64,000 bases of DNA from assembly GCA_030024085.1 (NCBI GenBank), contig JASEJE010000003.1, positions 62,001 to 126,000 on the forward strand. The letters are read 5' to 3'. A program made the translations under genes and the position numbers. The first letter of the stretch is position 1. The number at the start of each line of letters is the position of its first letter. Source of the DNA: Bacillota bacterium (GTDB lineage Bacteria; Bacillota; SHA-98; UBA4971). Shown here piece by piece: positions 17,400 to 23,317 of this stretch. Below the pieces are notes generated by a model that was not told the origin of the DNA, did not search any database, and was given only the letters and a program-made list of their open reading frames with translations.

Positions 17400-19766
17400 T
17401 TGAGCCTTCTTCGAGACGTCCTGAACGAGATAGCAGCCCTGCTTTCTTTCGAAAGCCCGGCCAGGGAGGAGGAATTCGTCCTCGACACCCAGCCGCGTCT
17501 ACCGGGCCTTACCTCGGACGTGCCGCAAAGTGAGGCACCGTCGCCGCCCGCGCTCGAAGGACAGGGCCAGACCCCCGGACGAGCGCAGGTACAGGCACCG
17601 GGACAGGAACAGGAACACAGGCAGGGGCAGAGCCAGGCGCAGGCGCAGGGGCAGCACGGTCGAGATCGCCGTCAGCATCGAGGCTGGTCGCTGTCAGGTG
17701 ACCAGGCTGGTGGGTCCGCGGGGGAACCGTCCGCGGTGGAGTGGCTGTCCGAGGCCCTGCCGCGCACGCCCTACGGATTCCTTCGGCCGAGGAAGATGTC
17801 CACCATCAAGATAGGGTTCGGCCGTGAGACGGCCCGGCCGGTCCGTCCGCTGCCCATCGCCCACGAGACCTCGACTGAGATCTCGCCGCCGACACATGGC
17901 AACGAACGCAGGACCACCGCACAGGAAAGCCCTCCTCAGGGAGATAACCAGCAACAGGGGCAATTGCGGCCGCGGGAGCCTGGGGACGGGCCGGGACAGG
18001 GGCTGGGGCAGGGGCAGGGGCAGGAACGCGGCGCGGGGCACGAGGCGGAAACGTCAGGGGTACCCTGCGGTGAAGGGACGGGCCCGGGCGCAGCAGGACA
18101 ACAAGCTGGTCCGGCGTCCGGCCGGGGCGGCGGCTCTGGAAATAAGGGTGACGAAGTGAAGCCTCTCGCCGAGAACCTCCAGGCAAACCTCGACGCCCTC
18201 AAGCAGGTCCTGCATTACGGTCTGAACTCAGATGTCATCGTGAGGGAGTTCGACGTACCGACCACGCCCTCCACCAGGGCGGCAATCGTGTTCATGGAAG
18301 GCCTCGCGAGCAAGGACCTCATCGACCTTGCCGTCCTCCAGCCGCTCATGCTCATCGCCAATCTGGACCGGGGTCTCCGCGCAGCGGACGTGCTCGAGAC
18401 AATCGAGCGGCGCCTCCTCCCCGGCAACCAGGTAACGCGCAAGGACAACCTCCGGGGTATCATCGAGGGTGTGATAGCCGGCACGACATGCCTTCTCGTC
18501 GAAGGATGCGGCACTGCGCTGGAGGTCGAGACCAAGTCGTGGGAGCATCGGGGCATAAGTCAGCCAACTGCCGAAACCGTGGTCCACGGTCCCCAGGAGG
18601 CGTTCAACGAGACCCTCAAGAACAACGTGGCGCTCGTGCGGCGACGCATGCGTACGCCTGACCTCGTAAGCGAGGTGATCAAGGTGGGGACGCTGTCGCG
18701 CGTGGATTGCGCGGTCCTCTACGTGGAGGGTCTCGCAAATCCCAAACTCGTGGCAGAGGTGAAGAGGCGCATCAATGGGATCAGGGCGGACCAGATTCAG
18801 GACACCGGCTCTCTCGAGCAATTCATCGAGGACAGGCCCTTCATGCTGGCTCCGCAGACCCTGTCCACAGAACGCCCCGACAGAATGGCCGCCTTTCTCT
18901 CCGAGGGGCACGTCGGCATCCTGCTCGACGGAAGCCCGTTCGGTCTGGTCGCACCGGCAACCTTCTGGGCGCTCCTTCAATCGGCGGAGGATCATTACCT
19001 GCGGTGGCCGTTCGGCACCTTCCTGCGCCTCGTCCGCCTGGCCGCCCTCGCCGTCGCCGTGCTCTTGCCAGCGGTGTACATCGCGCTCACCAACTTCCAC
19101 CCGGAGATGCTCCCAACCGACCTCCTCCTCGCCATCGCCGCGACGCGCGAGAGAGTGCCGTTCCCGACGGTGGTCGAGGTGCTCGTCATGGAGGTGTCGT
19201 TCGAGCTCATCCGCGAGGCCGGCATCCGCGTGCCGGGGGTCATCGGCCCCACCCTGGGCATAGTGGGCGCGCTGATCCTCGGTCAGGCCGCGGTCGCTGC
19301 CTCGATAGTCAGCCCGATCCTCGTGATAATCGTGGCCGTGACCGCCCTTGGATCGTTTGCAGTCCCGAACTTCAACATGGCCTTCGCCGCCCGGCTCACG
19401 CGCTTTGTGTATATCTTCGTTGCAGCAGCCTTCGGCTTCTATGGGATCGCGGTAGGGGTCTTCCTTCAGATGCTGCTATACGTGAACGCAAGGTCGTTCG
19501 GAGTGCCCTTCATGTCGCCGGTGGCCCCGTTCGCCCAGTCCAGCGGAGATCTGATCCTCCGGTACCCGTCCTGGAGCATGGAGCTGCGGCCCGCGTTTCT
19601 CCAGACCAGGCGCAGGGAGCGACAGCCTGAAGTCGCCCGCAAGTGGACACCCTCGTGGACTACCGACGCCCCATCACCAGACTCCGGCACCGGGCAGATG
19701 GCGGAGGAGTCGAGCGGAGGGCGGCCCACGTCACGCCGGGACAAGGGAGGCAGGGGACGTGCTTGA
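17400..19766 (+). CDS. GerA-family spore germinant receptor A subunit
   Basis: Residues about 250-560 form the cytoplasmic GerA domain (IVREFDVPT, CAVLYVEGLANPKLV, FIEDRPF), followed by four or five transmembrane helices starting near FGTFLRLVRLAALAVAVLLP and containing the family segment REAGIRVPGVIGPTLGIVGALILG. The A subunit sits in the inner spore membrane and helps sense nutrients and release ions. At 788 residues it is far longer than the usual 480-550, because residues about 40-250 are a Gln/Gly/Arg/Pro low-complexity region built from CAGGNN hexamers. The TTG at 17400 has GGAGG nine nt upstream. Plus-strand, opposite to its neighbours. Confidence 0.92.
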   Translation: MSLLRDVLNEIAALLSFESPAREEEFVLDTQPRLPGLTSDVPQSEAPSPPALEGQGQTPGRAQVQAPGQEQEHRQGQSQAQAQGQHGRDRRQHRGWSLSGDQAGGSAGEPSAVEWLSEALPRTPYGFLRPRKMSTIKIGFGRETARPVRPLPIAHETSTEISPPTHGNERRTTAQESPPQGDNQQQGQLRPREPGDGPGQGLGQGQGQERGAGHEAETSGVPCGEGTGPGAAGQQAGPASGRGGGSGNKGDEVKPLAENLQANLDALKQVLHYGLNSDVIVREFDVPTTPSTRAAIVFMEGLASKDLIDLAVLQPLMLIANLDRGLRAADVLETIERRLLPGNQVTRKDNLRGIIEGVIAGTTCLLVEGCGTALEVETKSWEHRGISQPTAETVVHGPQEAFNETLKNNVALVRRRMRTPDLVSEVIKVGTLSRVDCAVLYVEGLANPKLVAEVKRRINGIRADQIQDTGSLEQFIEDRPFMLAPQTLSTERPDRMAAFLSEGHVGILLDGSPFGLVAPATFWALLQSAEDHYLRWPFGTFLRLVRLAALAVAVLLPAVYIALTNFHPEMLPTDLLLAIAATRERVPFPTVVEVLVMEVSFELIREAGIRVPGVIGPTLGIVGALILGQAAVAASIVSPILVIIVAVTALGSFAVPNFNMAFAARLTRFVYIFVAAAFGFYGIAVGVFLQMLLYVNARSFGVPFMSPVAPFAQSSGDLILRYPSWSMELRPAFLQTRRRERQPEVARKWTPSWTTDAPSPDSGTGQMAEESSGGRPTSRRDKGGRGRA

Positions 19767-20871
19767 GGAAGGCAGGATCGGCACGAACGAGGCCATCGCG
19801 GCCACTGTGTATTTCCTTTCGTCGAAGCTGTTCATCTCGTTCCCGCAGCAAATGGCGACGGTCGGCCTGACGGCGGCATGGATCGTGCCCATCATCAGCT
19901 TCGGAACAGGCGCAATCGGGTTCCTCATCATAGCCGCTCTCCTCAGACGCTATCCCCGAATGAGCATCGTCGAGATAGGCGAGGAAGTCGCAGGGCCTAT
20001 CTTCGGCACCCTCGCCTCCCTCGGATATCTGGCCTTCTTCTTCGCCGCCACGATCCTCGTCATGCGGGAGTTCTCCGAGACCGTGAGCACCGCCCTGCTC
20101 CCGCGCACGCCTCTCTCGGCGGTGATGGCCGTCTTCGTGCTGGTCACCGTCATCTCCGTCTATCTCGGATCGGAGGCGCTCACGAGGGCTGCTTTCCTGG
20201 CCGCACCGCTCATCGTGGTGACCCTTCTGTTCCTGAACCTGCTTTCGCTGCCCCAGGCCAATCTCGACGCCATGTTCCCGCTTCTCGGCCCCGGGTTGAG
20301 TAAGCTCATCTACCACGGGGTGCTCCACTCGGCTGTGGCCGGGGAGGTCATGTTCCTTGGGGTCATAGCGCCGCAGCTTCGAGATGCGGACAAGGTCAGG
20401 ATGATGGGGCTTGTCGCCATAGCCGTGACCGCCGTATTCACCAGCACGGCGCTGCTCGTCTTCGTGACGGTGTTCCCCTACCCGCTGTGCGTTCACATCC
20501 CGTACCCCGGTTACGAGGTGTCGACCCTGATCTACGTCGGCAGGTTCTTCCAGCGGGTCGATGTAGCGTTCGTGTTTCTCTGGGTCATAAGCGGGTGCAT
20601 AGAGCTTGGGCTTGGCGCCTACACGACGACGATGATCCTGGCGCGCATGCTCAGGCTCCCCGTGTACCGCCCGATCCTGCCGGCGGTGGCGATCATCGGC
20701 TACACCCTCGCCTTCGTACCTCCGGACGTTCCTACCGCGACCCGGCTGGACTTCGAGATCGTCAGGACCTTGGGCGCCATCGCGGTCTTCATCGTCCCGG
20801 CGGTGCTGCTCCTCGTCGCCCAGATGAAGGAGGCCCGGGCCGGCGGGAGGAGGCGGGCACGCAGTGCGTGA
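19759..20871 (+). CDS. GerB-family spore germinant receptor B subunit
   Basis: A 370-residue membrane protein of the amino acid/polyamine/organocation superfamily with ten predicted helices. The start RIGTNEAIAATVYFLSSKLF and the motif ISFGTGAIGFLIIAALLRRYP are typical of GerAB. The B subunit contains the nutrient-binding pocket in characterised receptors. The GTG at 19759 follows AGGGAGG and overlaps the A-subunit stop by 8 bp, so the two are translationally coupled. The ligand cannot be predicted from the sequence. Confidence 0.93.
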   Translation: MLEEGRIGTNEAIAATVYFLSSKLFISFPQQMATVGLTAAWIVPIISFGTGAIGFLIIAALLRRYPRMSIVEIGEEVAGPIFGTLASLGYLAFFFAATILVMREFSETVSTALLPRTPLSAVMAVFVLVTVISVYLGSEALTRAAFLAAPLIVVTLLFLNLLSLPQANLDAMFPLLGPGLSKLIYHGVLHSAVAGEVMFLGVIAPQLRDADKVRMMGLVAIAVTAVFTSTALLVFVTVFPYPLCVHIPYPGYEVSTLIYVGRFFQRVDVAFVFLWVISGCIELGLGAYTTTMILARMLRLPVYRPILPAVAIIGYTLAFVPPDVPTATRLDFEIVRTLGAIAVFIVPAVLLLVAQMKEARAGGRRRARSA

Positions 20872-22294
20872 GATATCGAGGCAGACGCTCGCACGCGCCA
20901 GGACCGCTCTGCGCCTGTCGCTGTGCCTCGTTGCAGTGCTCGTCTGCGCCGCGGGGTGCTGGGACAGGACGGAGGTGGACGACCTCGCGTTCATAATGGC
21001 CATCGGCCTCGATGAGGCGCCGGACGACCAGGTGAACGTGACCCTGCACATAGCCGTCCCCAGGGCCGTGGCGGGCGGCGGCGGGTCGGGCGGCGGCTCC
21101 GGCGCGGGTGGTGGAGGAGGGGGTGGTCAGCAGACCAGCCTCATAACGACGCTGACGGGCCACTCCATCCTGAGCGTCCTCAACCTGGTGAACACCCACG
21201 TTGACAGGCGCCCGAGCCTCGTTCACGGCAAGATGGTCGTCATCAGCGAAAAACTCGCAAGACGCGGGATCGCCCCGTACATCAGCGAGCTCGTGAGGTT
21301 TCGTGACGCGAGGAGGACCATGTTCCTCACCGTCAGCCGGGGGAGCGCCAAGGAGTTCATCGAGAAGAACCGTCCGATCATCGAACAGAACCCCGCGAAA
21401 AACCTCGAGCTTCTCGCGCTCGCCAACAGGCAGACCGGGTTCATTCCCCCATCCCAGATTCACAGGTTCCTGGTGGAGATGCAATCACTGGGAGAGGAGC
21501 CTCTCGCCATCCTCGCGGGGGTCAGGGAAGAGGCTCCAGGCGGCAGAACGGAGCAATCAGCCGCCAGAGGAGGACAGGGCGGGGACGGCTCGTCCGATGG
21601 CGGCGCAGCCGGCGGCGGCGCCGGGATGGGGCCCCCGAAGGTGCCGCGCCCCCCGCCCGTCCACGTTCGCAGTGACTCTGACTATGTAGCAGGCGAGTCC
21701 CCCTCGGTCGGTGGAAACCCGGTGGAGGTCATCGGCGGCGCGGTCTTCAGAGGCGACACGATGGTCGGAGAGATCACGGGACAGGACGTCAGGGCCGTGC
21801 TCCTCATCCGTGGGACATTCAAGAGGGGCACGCTCGTCCTGAAGGACCCGTTCGTGAAAGACAGGTACGCGGCGTGCGACATCCGCCTTGCCCGCCCGAC
21901 GGAGACGCGGGTGCTGAAAGAAGGACAAGGGTTCCGCATCAAGGTGAACATCCTTCTCGAAGGGGAGGTCATCGGAAGCCAGAGCCGCATCGATTACTCA
22001 AACCCAAAGAACCTCCACATTCTCGAAAGGCGGTTCGCGGAAAACCTCAAGAAGAGTTGCGATGACGTGGTGAAAAGGGCCCAAGAGGAGTTTCGCGCAG
22101 ACATCTTCGCCTTTGGAAACAAAGCCCGCCACCTCACGAAGACATGGCGCGAATGGGAGGCTCTCAACTGGCCCGGGAGATTCCCGGAGGCGAAAGTGGA
22201 CGTCGAGGTGAAGCTGGACCTTCGCCGCACGGGCCTCTTGTTCAAGCCGCCGGAACCCAGCGTCCAGAGCGCGCCCAAGGCGGAGAGGAGGTAG
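20864..22294 (+). CDS. GerC-family spore germinant receptor C subunit, lipoprotein
   Basis: The N-terminus is a lipoprotein signal (LSLCLVAVLVCAAGC, with Cys near residue 26), directly followed by the GerC hallmark WDRTEVDDLAFIMAIGLD. The three-domain GerC fold follows, ending near residue 465. At 476 residues it is longer than usual (370-400) because of two Gly-rich low-complexity inserts (about residues 67-92 and 225-262) in loops. The GTG at 20864 follows GGGAGGAGG and overlaps gerB by 8 bp. Expected location: outer face of the inner spore membrane. Confidence 0.93.
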   Translation: MREISRQTLARARTALRLSLCLVAVLVCAAGCWDRTEVDDLAFIMAIGLDEAPDDQVNVTLHIAVPRAVAGGGGSGGGSGAGGGGGGGQQTSLITTLTGHSILSVLNLVNTHVDRRPSLVHGKMVVISEKLARRGIAPYISELVRFRDARRTMFLTVSRGSAKEFIEKNRPIIEQNPAKNLELLALANRQTGFIPPSQIHRFLVEMQSLGEEPLAILAGVREEAPGGRTEQSAARGGQGGDGSSDGGAAGGGAGMGPPKVPRPPPVHVRSDSDYVAGESPSVGGNPVEVIGGAVFRGDTMVGEITGQDVRAVLLIRGTFKRGTLVLKDPFVKDRYAACDIRLARPTETRVLKEGQGFRIKVNILLEGEVIGSQSRIDYSNPKNLHILERRFAENLKKSCDDVVKRAQEEFRADIFAFGNKARHLTKTWREWEALNWPGRFPEAKVDVEVKLDLRRTGLLFKPPEPSVQSAPKAERR

Positions 22295-22301
22295 AGAGCG
22301 C

Positions 22302-22478
22302 GTGCGTCTGGGAGTCCTGCTCACCACGATGCCGGTGCCGATCGCGGTGGCGATATACACTGCAAGCTTCGGTCTCTGGCTTCTTCGCCACCGAAACGTC
22401 CGCGGGGCTGTCGGGGCGTTCATCCTTGCGGCCGGGTGCATCGCCGCGCCGCTCCTGCTTCTCCTTATCAGCGGGTAG
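22302..22478 (+). CDS. Small two-helix membrane protein, candidate germinant receptor D subunit
   Basis: A 58-codon frame starts 7 bp after the gerC stop. The GTG at 22302 has AGGAGG ten nt upstream and the frame ends at TAG 22476-22478, just before the operon terminator. The product MRLGVLLTTMPVPIAVAIYT... has two hydrophobic segments (about residues 4-27 and 35-57) joined by a basic turn (LLRHRNVRG). Tiny two-helix D proteins encoded within or beside gerA-type operons are known in Bacillus and modulate germination rate. The assignment is from size, topology and position; no sequence match could be tested. Confidence 0.65.
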   Translation: MRLGVLLTTMPVPIAVAIYTASFGLWLLRHRNVRGAVGAFILAAGCIAAPLLLLLISG

Positions 22479-22500
22479 CCTCCCCGTCCCCGGGGGAGGC
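22478..22500 (+). terminator. Intergenic terminator between the ger operon and codY
   Basis: GCCTCCCC (22478-22485) pairs with GGGGAGGC (22493-22500) across a 7-nt loop, between convergent ger and codY genes. There is no marked T-run on either side, so it may serve both directions weakly. Confidence 0.5.
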
Positions 22501-22531
22501 CACCCGCGCATCCTGCACACCGCCGGCTCCG

Positions 22532-23317
22532 CTATCTCGCCCGCAGCCTCTCGAGTTCATCGAAGAGCTTGTCGTTGAGCACCCTGATATAGGTGCCTTT
22601 CATGCCGAGGGAGCGTGACTCGATGACCCCGGCGCTCTCGAACTTGCGGAGTGCATTTACGATGACCGATCTCGTGATGCCCACTTTGTCAGCGATCTTG
22701 CTCGCCACGAGCAGACCCTCGTCTCCGCCGAGTTCCTCGAAGATGTGCTCCACGGCCTCCTGCTCAGAGAAGGAGAGAGTATCGAGGGCCATCTGCACCG
22801 AAGCCTTCTTGCGGGCCTCCTCTTCGATCTGCCCGGTCTTCGAGCGGAGGATCTCCATGCCGAACACGGTGGCGGCGTATTCCGCAAGCACGAGGTCCTC
22901 GTCGGAGAACTCCTTCTCAAGCCTTGCCAGCACAAGGGTCCCCATCCTGTCTCCCCCTGCGTAGATGGGAACGACGGTGAGAAGCTTCTCGGCAAACCCG
23001 CACTCCACGTTCGGGCCGAGGAAGCACTTCCCGCGCTCGTGCCGGACGTTCTCGGACGTCTCGATTATCCGAAGGAGCCAGTCAGAGGACTCCCTGGGGA
23101 ACATCCCGCCGTTCCCGACACACCCCACCGCCGCCTCGCAATCGAAGCCCTCCATGAAACCGTATCCCAGAAGCTTTCCGCGGCGCGCCACCACGTACAC
23201 GTTGGCAGCGATCTCCTCGGAGAACACGGCGGCAAGTTCATTGAAGTTGCTTGGAAAACCCGTGGACTCCTGTATGAACCGGCTGATTCTCCGCGTCTTC
23301 TCCAGTAGTTCGCTCAT
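22532..23317 (-). CDS. codY: GTP- and branched-chain amino acid-sensing repressor CodY
   Basis: CodY is the global nutrient regulator of low-GC Gram-positives. At 261 residues it has the usual length: an N-terminal GAF ligand domain (LLEKTRRISRFIQESTG..., with the GTP/BCAA pocket) and a C-terminal winged helix (ASKIADKVGITRSVIVNALRK, about residues 203-225). The ATG at 23317 follows AAGGAGGAGACGTCG. It is the last gene of the xerC-hslV-hslU-codY series, the same order as codV-clpQ-clpY-codY in Bacillus subtilis. Confidence 0.96.
   Translation of the reverse strand: MSELLEKTRRISRFIQESTGFPSNFNELAAVFSEEIAANVYVVARRGKLLGYGFMEGFDCEAAVGCVGNGGMFPRESSDWLLRIIETSENVRHERGKCFLGPNVECGFAEKLLTVVPIYAGGDRMGTLVLARLEKEFSDEDLVLAEYAATVFGMEILRSKTGQIEEEARKKASVQMALDTLSFSEQEAVEHIFEELGGDEGLLVASKIADKVGITRSVIVNALRKFESAGVIESRSLGMKGTYIRVLNDKLFDELERLRAR

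Follow-up and report, generated by a model that had tools for sequence, protein, structure and literature searches.

Small proteins of germinant receptor operons

The germinant receptor has been described as a ligand-gated channel (PMC13170314). In the published account of the D subunit GerUD, the Km for glucose is 1.7 mM with this small protein and 7.5 mM after its loss, the corresponding Kgerm50 values are 0.24 and 2.5 mM, and reporter fusions indicate two helices with the connecting loop facing outward (PMC4661057). GerUD remains functional with one helix, with its helices swapped or with its sequence reversed, and a chaperone role has been proposed by the authors (PMC4661057). For the GerI receptor, AlphaFold 3 is reported to place GerID within the receptor protomer (PMC13170314). 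Small frames inside receptor clusters have also been reported as GerX(x) in Clostridium botulinum Group III, along with "unrelated small proteins" in other receptor clusters (PMC5083711).

The window analyzed here is the whole stretch of 64,000 nucleotides taken from a Bacillota bacterium (contig JASEJE010000003.1, positions 62,001 to 126,000, forward strand). It contains a gerABC operon followed by a frame for a protein of 58 amino acids, hereafter the window protein.

The locus

A preliminary description of this DNA had proposed a 58-codon frame with a good ribosome-binding site at the end of a gerABC operon, encoding two hydrophobic helices and lying before the operon terminator. The frame is present, opening with GTG 10 nt downstream of AGGAGG, and the identities of gerA, gerB, and gerC upstream of it are confirmed by Pfam (Table 1). 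The terminator could be upheld in part. A strong hairpin spans the stop codon, with a folding energy of -32.3 kcal/mol and a z of -5.6 that none of 200 shuffles equaled, and its sequence is largely conserved in all five aligned genomes of the genus; no T-run follows it, and it does not appear in the list from the terminator scan. Given the missing T-run, the hairpin may end both converging transcripts yet is not a textbook terminator, and it is probably a shared, non-canonical terminator of the ger operon and of convergent codY. The N-terminal 260 or so residues of GerA (window 17400-18200) are rich in Q, G, and P and probably disordered, with the GerA domain beginning at residue 267.

Table 1. 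Features of the receptor locus, in window coordinates.
Feature	Position	Strand	Basis
gerA, germinant receptor A subunit	17400..19766	+	Pfam PF03323, E 9.9e-172; start codon uncertain
gerB, receptor B subunit	19759..20871	+	Pfam PF03845, E 2.3e-32
gerC, receptor C subunit	20864..22294	+	Pfam PF25198, E 4.1e-38, and PF05504, E 1.5e-35
AGGAGG ribosome-binding site, overlapping the gerC end	22286..22291	+	sequence reading
58-aa two-helix protein (putative window-type D protein)	22302..22478	+	conservation, dN/dS, AlphaFold2
GC-rich hairpin across the stop codon of the 58-aa frame	22471..22507	.	folding and same-genus conservation
codY, convergent neighbor	22532..23317	-	Pfam PF06018, E 5.7e-53

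Conservation and selection

The 58-aa frame is a real, conserved gene under purifying selection. Conservation in related ger operons and a selection test had been suggested as checks, with absence from related species as the result that would speak against the gene. Orthologs occupy the same place behind gerC in every one of the five further genomes examined from the genus and in six of seven genomes of the sister genus, the contig of the seventh (G010) stopping just past gerC. Values of dN/dS range from 0.09 to 0.29 for the five pairs that include the window, and reach 0.55 across all 15 same-genus pairs, in many of which dS is high. Summed over 30 within-genus pairs, differences at codon positions 1, 2, and 3 number 397, 200, and 742. 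High-GC sequence of this kind is rich in long frames, 102 being listed, which gives some ground for suspecting a chance open frame; against this stand the conservation, the purifying selection and the relatives found across the phylum (see below), and the suspicion can be set aside with near certainty.

Larger overlapping frames (e.g., 22144-22578 on the plus strand and 21998-22441 on the minus strand) were ruled out because substitutions, read in the 58-aa frame, cluster at third codon positions. A regulatory role linked to codY is disfavored, as codY turned up, among the 74 loci scanned, only at those from the window's own family (L117 and L123-L130). Phages yielded no match to the window protein and plasmids none to either of the two relatives queried; a phage or plasmid origin is rejected as far as such searches reach.

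Predicted structure, motif, and charge

AlphaFold2, run with the family alignment, gives helices at residues 2-29 and 33-57 joined by a tight turn at 30-32, with a mean pLDDT of 91.4, in agreement with the two hydrophobic helices first proposed. The family shares the motif Y-T ... [FY]-[GA] ... [KR] ... N ... G-A ... P. Among 86 members, and in window protein numbering, Y and T (19-20) are kept in 76 and 74, G or A (24) in 79, K or R (29) in 72, N (32) in 60, G and A (35-36) in 73 and 74, and P (50) in 68. Basic residues of the turn region outnumber those of the two ends combined in 76 of the 86, equal them in eight, and fall short of them in two. Basic segments of membrane proteins tend to stay inside (the positive-inside rule), so the basic turn is predicted to face the core.

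No Pfam or NCBIfam family covers the window relatives at its cut-off, the family has no match among PDB sequences, and a PDB fold search returned nothing at E <= 0.001 (best 3.4). From Pfam, NCBIfam, and literature searches, the family is apparently undescribed. The window protein has no match to DUF3953 (PF13129); one relative, L099, matches it weakly (18.0 bits against a cut-off of 22), residues 18-53 aligning to positions 6-41 in the same register. In all, one of 58 family members reaches E 6e-4 against this domain, and none of 10 scanned singly exceeds 22 bits.

Distribution across Bacillota

Of 398 genomes from the phylum, 67 match a profile built from 15 sequences at E <= 0.01, and 62 match one built from 58 sequences at E <= 1e-5. 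In a Bacillus-like family, 59 of 151 genomes match the window-family profile at E <= 0.01. In a third family, 23 of 80 genomes match at the same threshold, of which four (G604, G605, G614, and G616) have clear small frames, whereas each of the remaining matches falls within a frame of 276-864 aa. No clear window-type case occurs in the 44 genomes of this family's largest genus; in several of its genomes that consist of a single contig, GerUD-type genes lie at about 420-540 kb. Among the carriers that bear names are Tumebacillus lacus, T. avium, Alicyclobacillus montanus, and Brevibacillus massiliensis, and the named near relatives of the window's genome are uncultured Bacillota MAGs. The search with 15 sequences found 76 places, six of which, all at E >= 0.001, were left out of the locus set. 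Among the loci dropped, L112, L120, and L121 missed the threshold of E 1e-3 on rescanning, L121 reaching 2.4e-7 with the later profile, and L118, which contains a run of N, was excluded from alignments.

Association with germinant receptors

Of 74 distinct relatives collected by sequence alone, 71 lie at ger operons: 61 immediately follow gerC and share its strand, nine are on the opposite strand facing the gerC 3' end, and one (L135) is behind gerB. The distance to the gerC 3' end is at most about 270 nt for 70 of the 74. All 15 loci examined from the 59 matching Bacillus-like genomes are likewise behind gerC, as are the four clear small frames of the 80-genome family. The nine convergent copies indicate that persistence of the frame is not merely a consequence of trailing gerC. 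When 269 phylum genomes were searched for gerA, carriers counted by the 58-sequence profile made up 39 of 232 gerA-positive genomes and none of 37 gerA-negative ones (Fisher p 0.004).

No ger genes lie near the other three relatives (L064, L065, and L105), which could suggest that a small membrane protein with some other task, such as a toxin-like or stress peptide, merely shares the operon. Such a reading is very improbable, since the 71 copies at ger operons come from many families of the phylum and from either strand. Two of the three solitary genes (L065:4492-4668 and L064:2294-2473) encode close relatives of the window protein, the start of the former overlapping the 3' end of a gene for a 356-aa membrane protein. 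The third (L105:4476-4646) is distant and lies far from ger genes, near a gene that we take from its sequence to be trpS-like.

A GerC tree was built from 103 tips, comprising 87 with the gene, one GerU, and 15 without the gene, these last being partly ascertained as the best GerC matches in non-carrier genomes together with the two other operons of the window's genome. Presence and absence of the gene require three changes on this tree, compared with at least 12 in 1000 shuffles, and two carriers (L111 and L122) are placed among non-carriers. By this phylogeny the window-type gene is linked to one clade of GerC. The window's genome has three gerA loci with the window-type gene at only one of them, so the protein is not a general need of receptors.

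Proposed role

The window protein is encoded beside a receptor operon and has two membrane helices with short ends (AlphaFold2, hydropathy), as do known D subunits. It is probably, in our judgment, a fourth subunit of the D type, or a close helper, that belongs to one receptor clade and tunes its sensitivity, because of the near-exclusive adjacency to gerC, the linkage to a GerC clade, the conserved motif and the analogous D proteins. We infer the role in germination itself from gene context alone. The protein would be made in the forespore together with the receptor, and its hairpin would insert in the inner membrane so that the turn lies in the spore core and the two ends lie outside it. There it may pack against the membrane helices of GerA and GerB, or aid their assembly, and the sensitivity of the receptor to germinant would thereby be set by the hairpin.

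The protein could instead be a factor for assembly or stability, a membrane chaperone and not a lasting subunit. The gene context fits this equally well, and the tolerance of GerUD for single, swapped, and reversed helices, with the chaperone role suggested in the same paper, lends it weight (PMC4661057). Against it, specific residues (Y-T, N, G-A, and P) are kept in the window family beyond the generic needs of a helix, and we regard it as a doubtful, if serious, alternative to a D-type subunit.

Comparison with known receptor proteins

GerD, the germinosome scaffold, is a lipoprotein with an N-terminal lipobox cysteine; the window protein lacks one, its sole cysteine lying within helix 2 at residue 46. 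GerID, from the GerI receptor of Bacillus cereus and compared here by its published description, is likewise a small D subunit (PMC13170314), and may belong to any of the families discussed below or to none. GerX(x), reported to be without homologs outside its group (PMC5083711), resembles the window protein, by its published description, in being a small frame within a receptor cluster.

GerUD and the GerKD-like proteins were compared by sequence, the latter label being assigned in Bacillus-like genomes from position and size. On Priestia megaterium pBM700, a 76-aa frame that runs divergently from gerUA was taken for GerUD itself, from its length and helix positions, an assumed position that differs from the placement in the constructs of the GerUD paper (PMC4661057). 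In the gene table of the plasmid record this frame (L140:4503-4733) is only a "hypothetical protein". A set of 65 distinct members of the GerUD family was collected, and gerA, gerB, or gerC is adjacent at all 60 GerUD-type loci examined. GerUD and GerKD-like proteins share with the window protein a small size, two membrane helices, and a gene within or next to an operon for a germinant receptor; a Pfam match is lacking for GerUD as well.

General topology, operon neighborhood, and similar size might thus mark the window protein as a member of the GerUD/GerKD family that has diverged past recognition. Profile comparison speaks against it: hhalign gives a probability of 3-6% between the window and GerUD families, while control subsets of each match at 98% and 99.8%, and in the absence of a profile match the two families are not detectably related. 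Charge is also reversed, the loop being more basic than the ends in none of 63 GerUD-family members as against 76 of 86 in the window family; GerUD-type proteins have an acidic outer loop with basic ends, whereas the window family has a basic turn. Moreover, GerUD-type proteins have a median length of 77 aa as compared with 58 aa, and their genes are divergent from gerA or beside gerB and not at the gerC 3' end. Distant common descent is therefore improbable. From the charge pattern, the window family is predicted to lie in the membrane in the opposite orientation to GerUD. The parallel with Bacillus D proteins that had been drawn from the sequence holds for the class of function, loss of GerUD altering germination (PMC4661057), but not for kinship. 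The best reading of the sequence data is that the window family would be a new D-type subunit, unrelated in sequence to those known.

A third two-helix family appears at the second receptor operon of the window's genome, where gerC is followed, at a distance of about 360 nt, by a 96-aa frame (L142:6956-7246). Of the 15 loci that lack a gene of the window type, six have relatives, which follow gerC in five cases and precede gerB in one; the other loci examined, many of which have short flanks, yielded none. This "PNP" family, with the motif WREL...PNP (also in L027, L026, L029, L021, and L032), gives no match with either the window or the GerUD family, nor does any Pfam or NCBIfam family match the L142 protein at its cut-off.

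Many Bacillota receptors would thus have an overlooked fourth gene, which is relevant to receptor reconstitution and modeling. A second, unrelated family, widespread outside the model species, offers an independent comparison with the Bacillus D subunits, and effects common to both families would point to the hairpin itself. A tentative extension, on balance unlikely, is that receptors possess, within the membrane, a slot that takes a small helical hairpin and has been filled by at least three unrelated families (window, GerUD, and PNP), each of them linked to a different clade of receptors. With the window family upside down relative to GerUD, such a slot would explain why GerUD functions with a reversed sequence.
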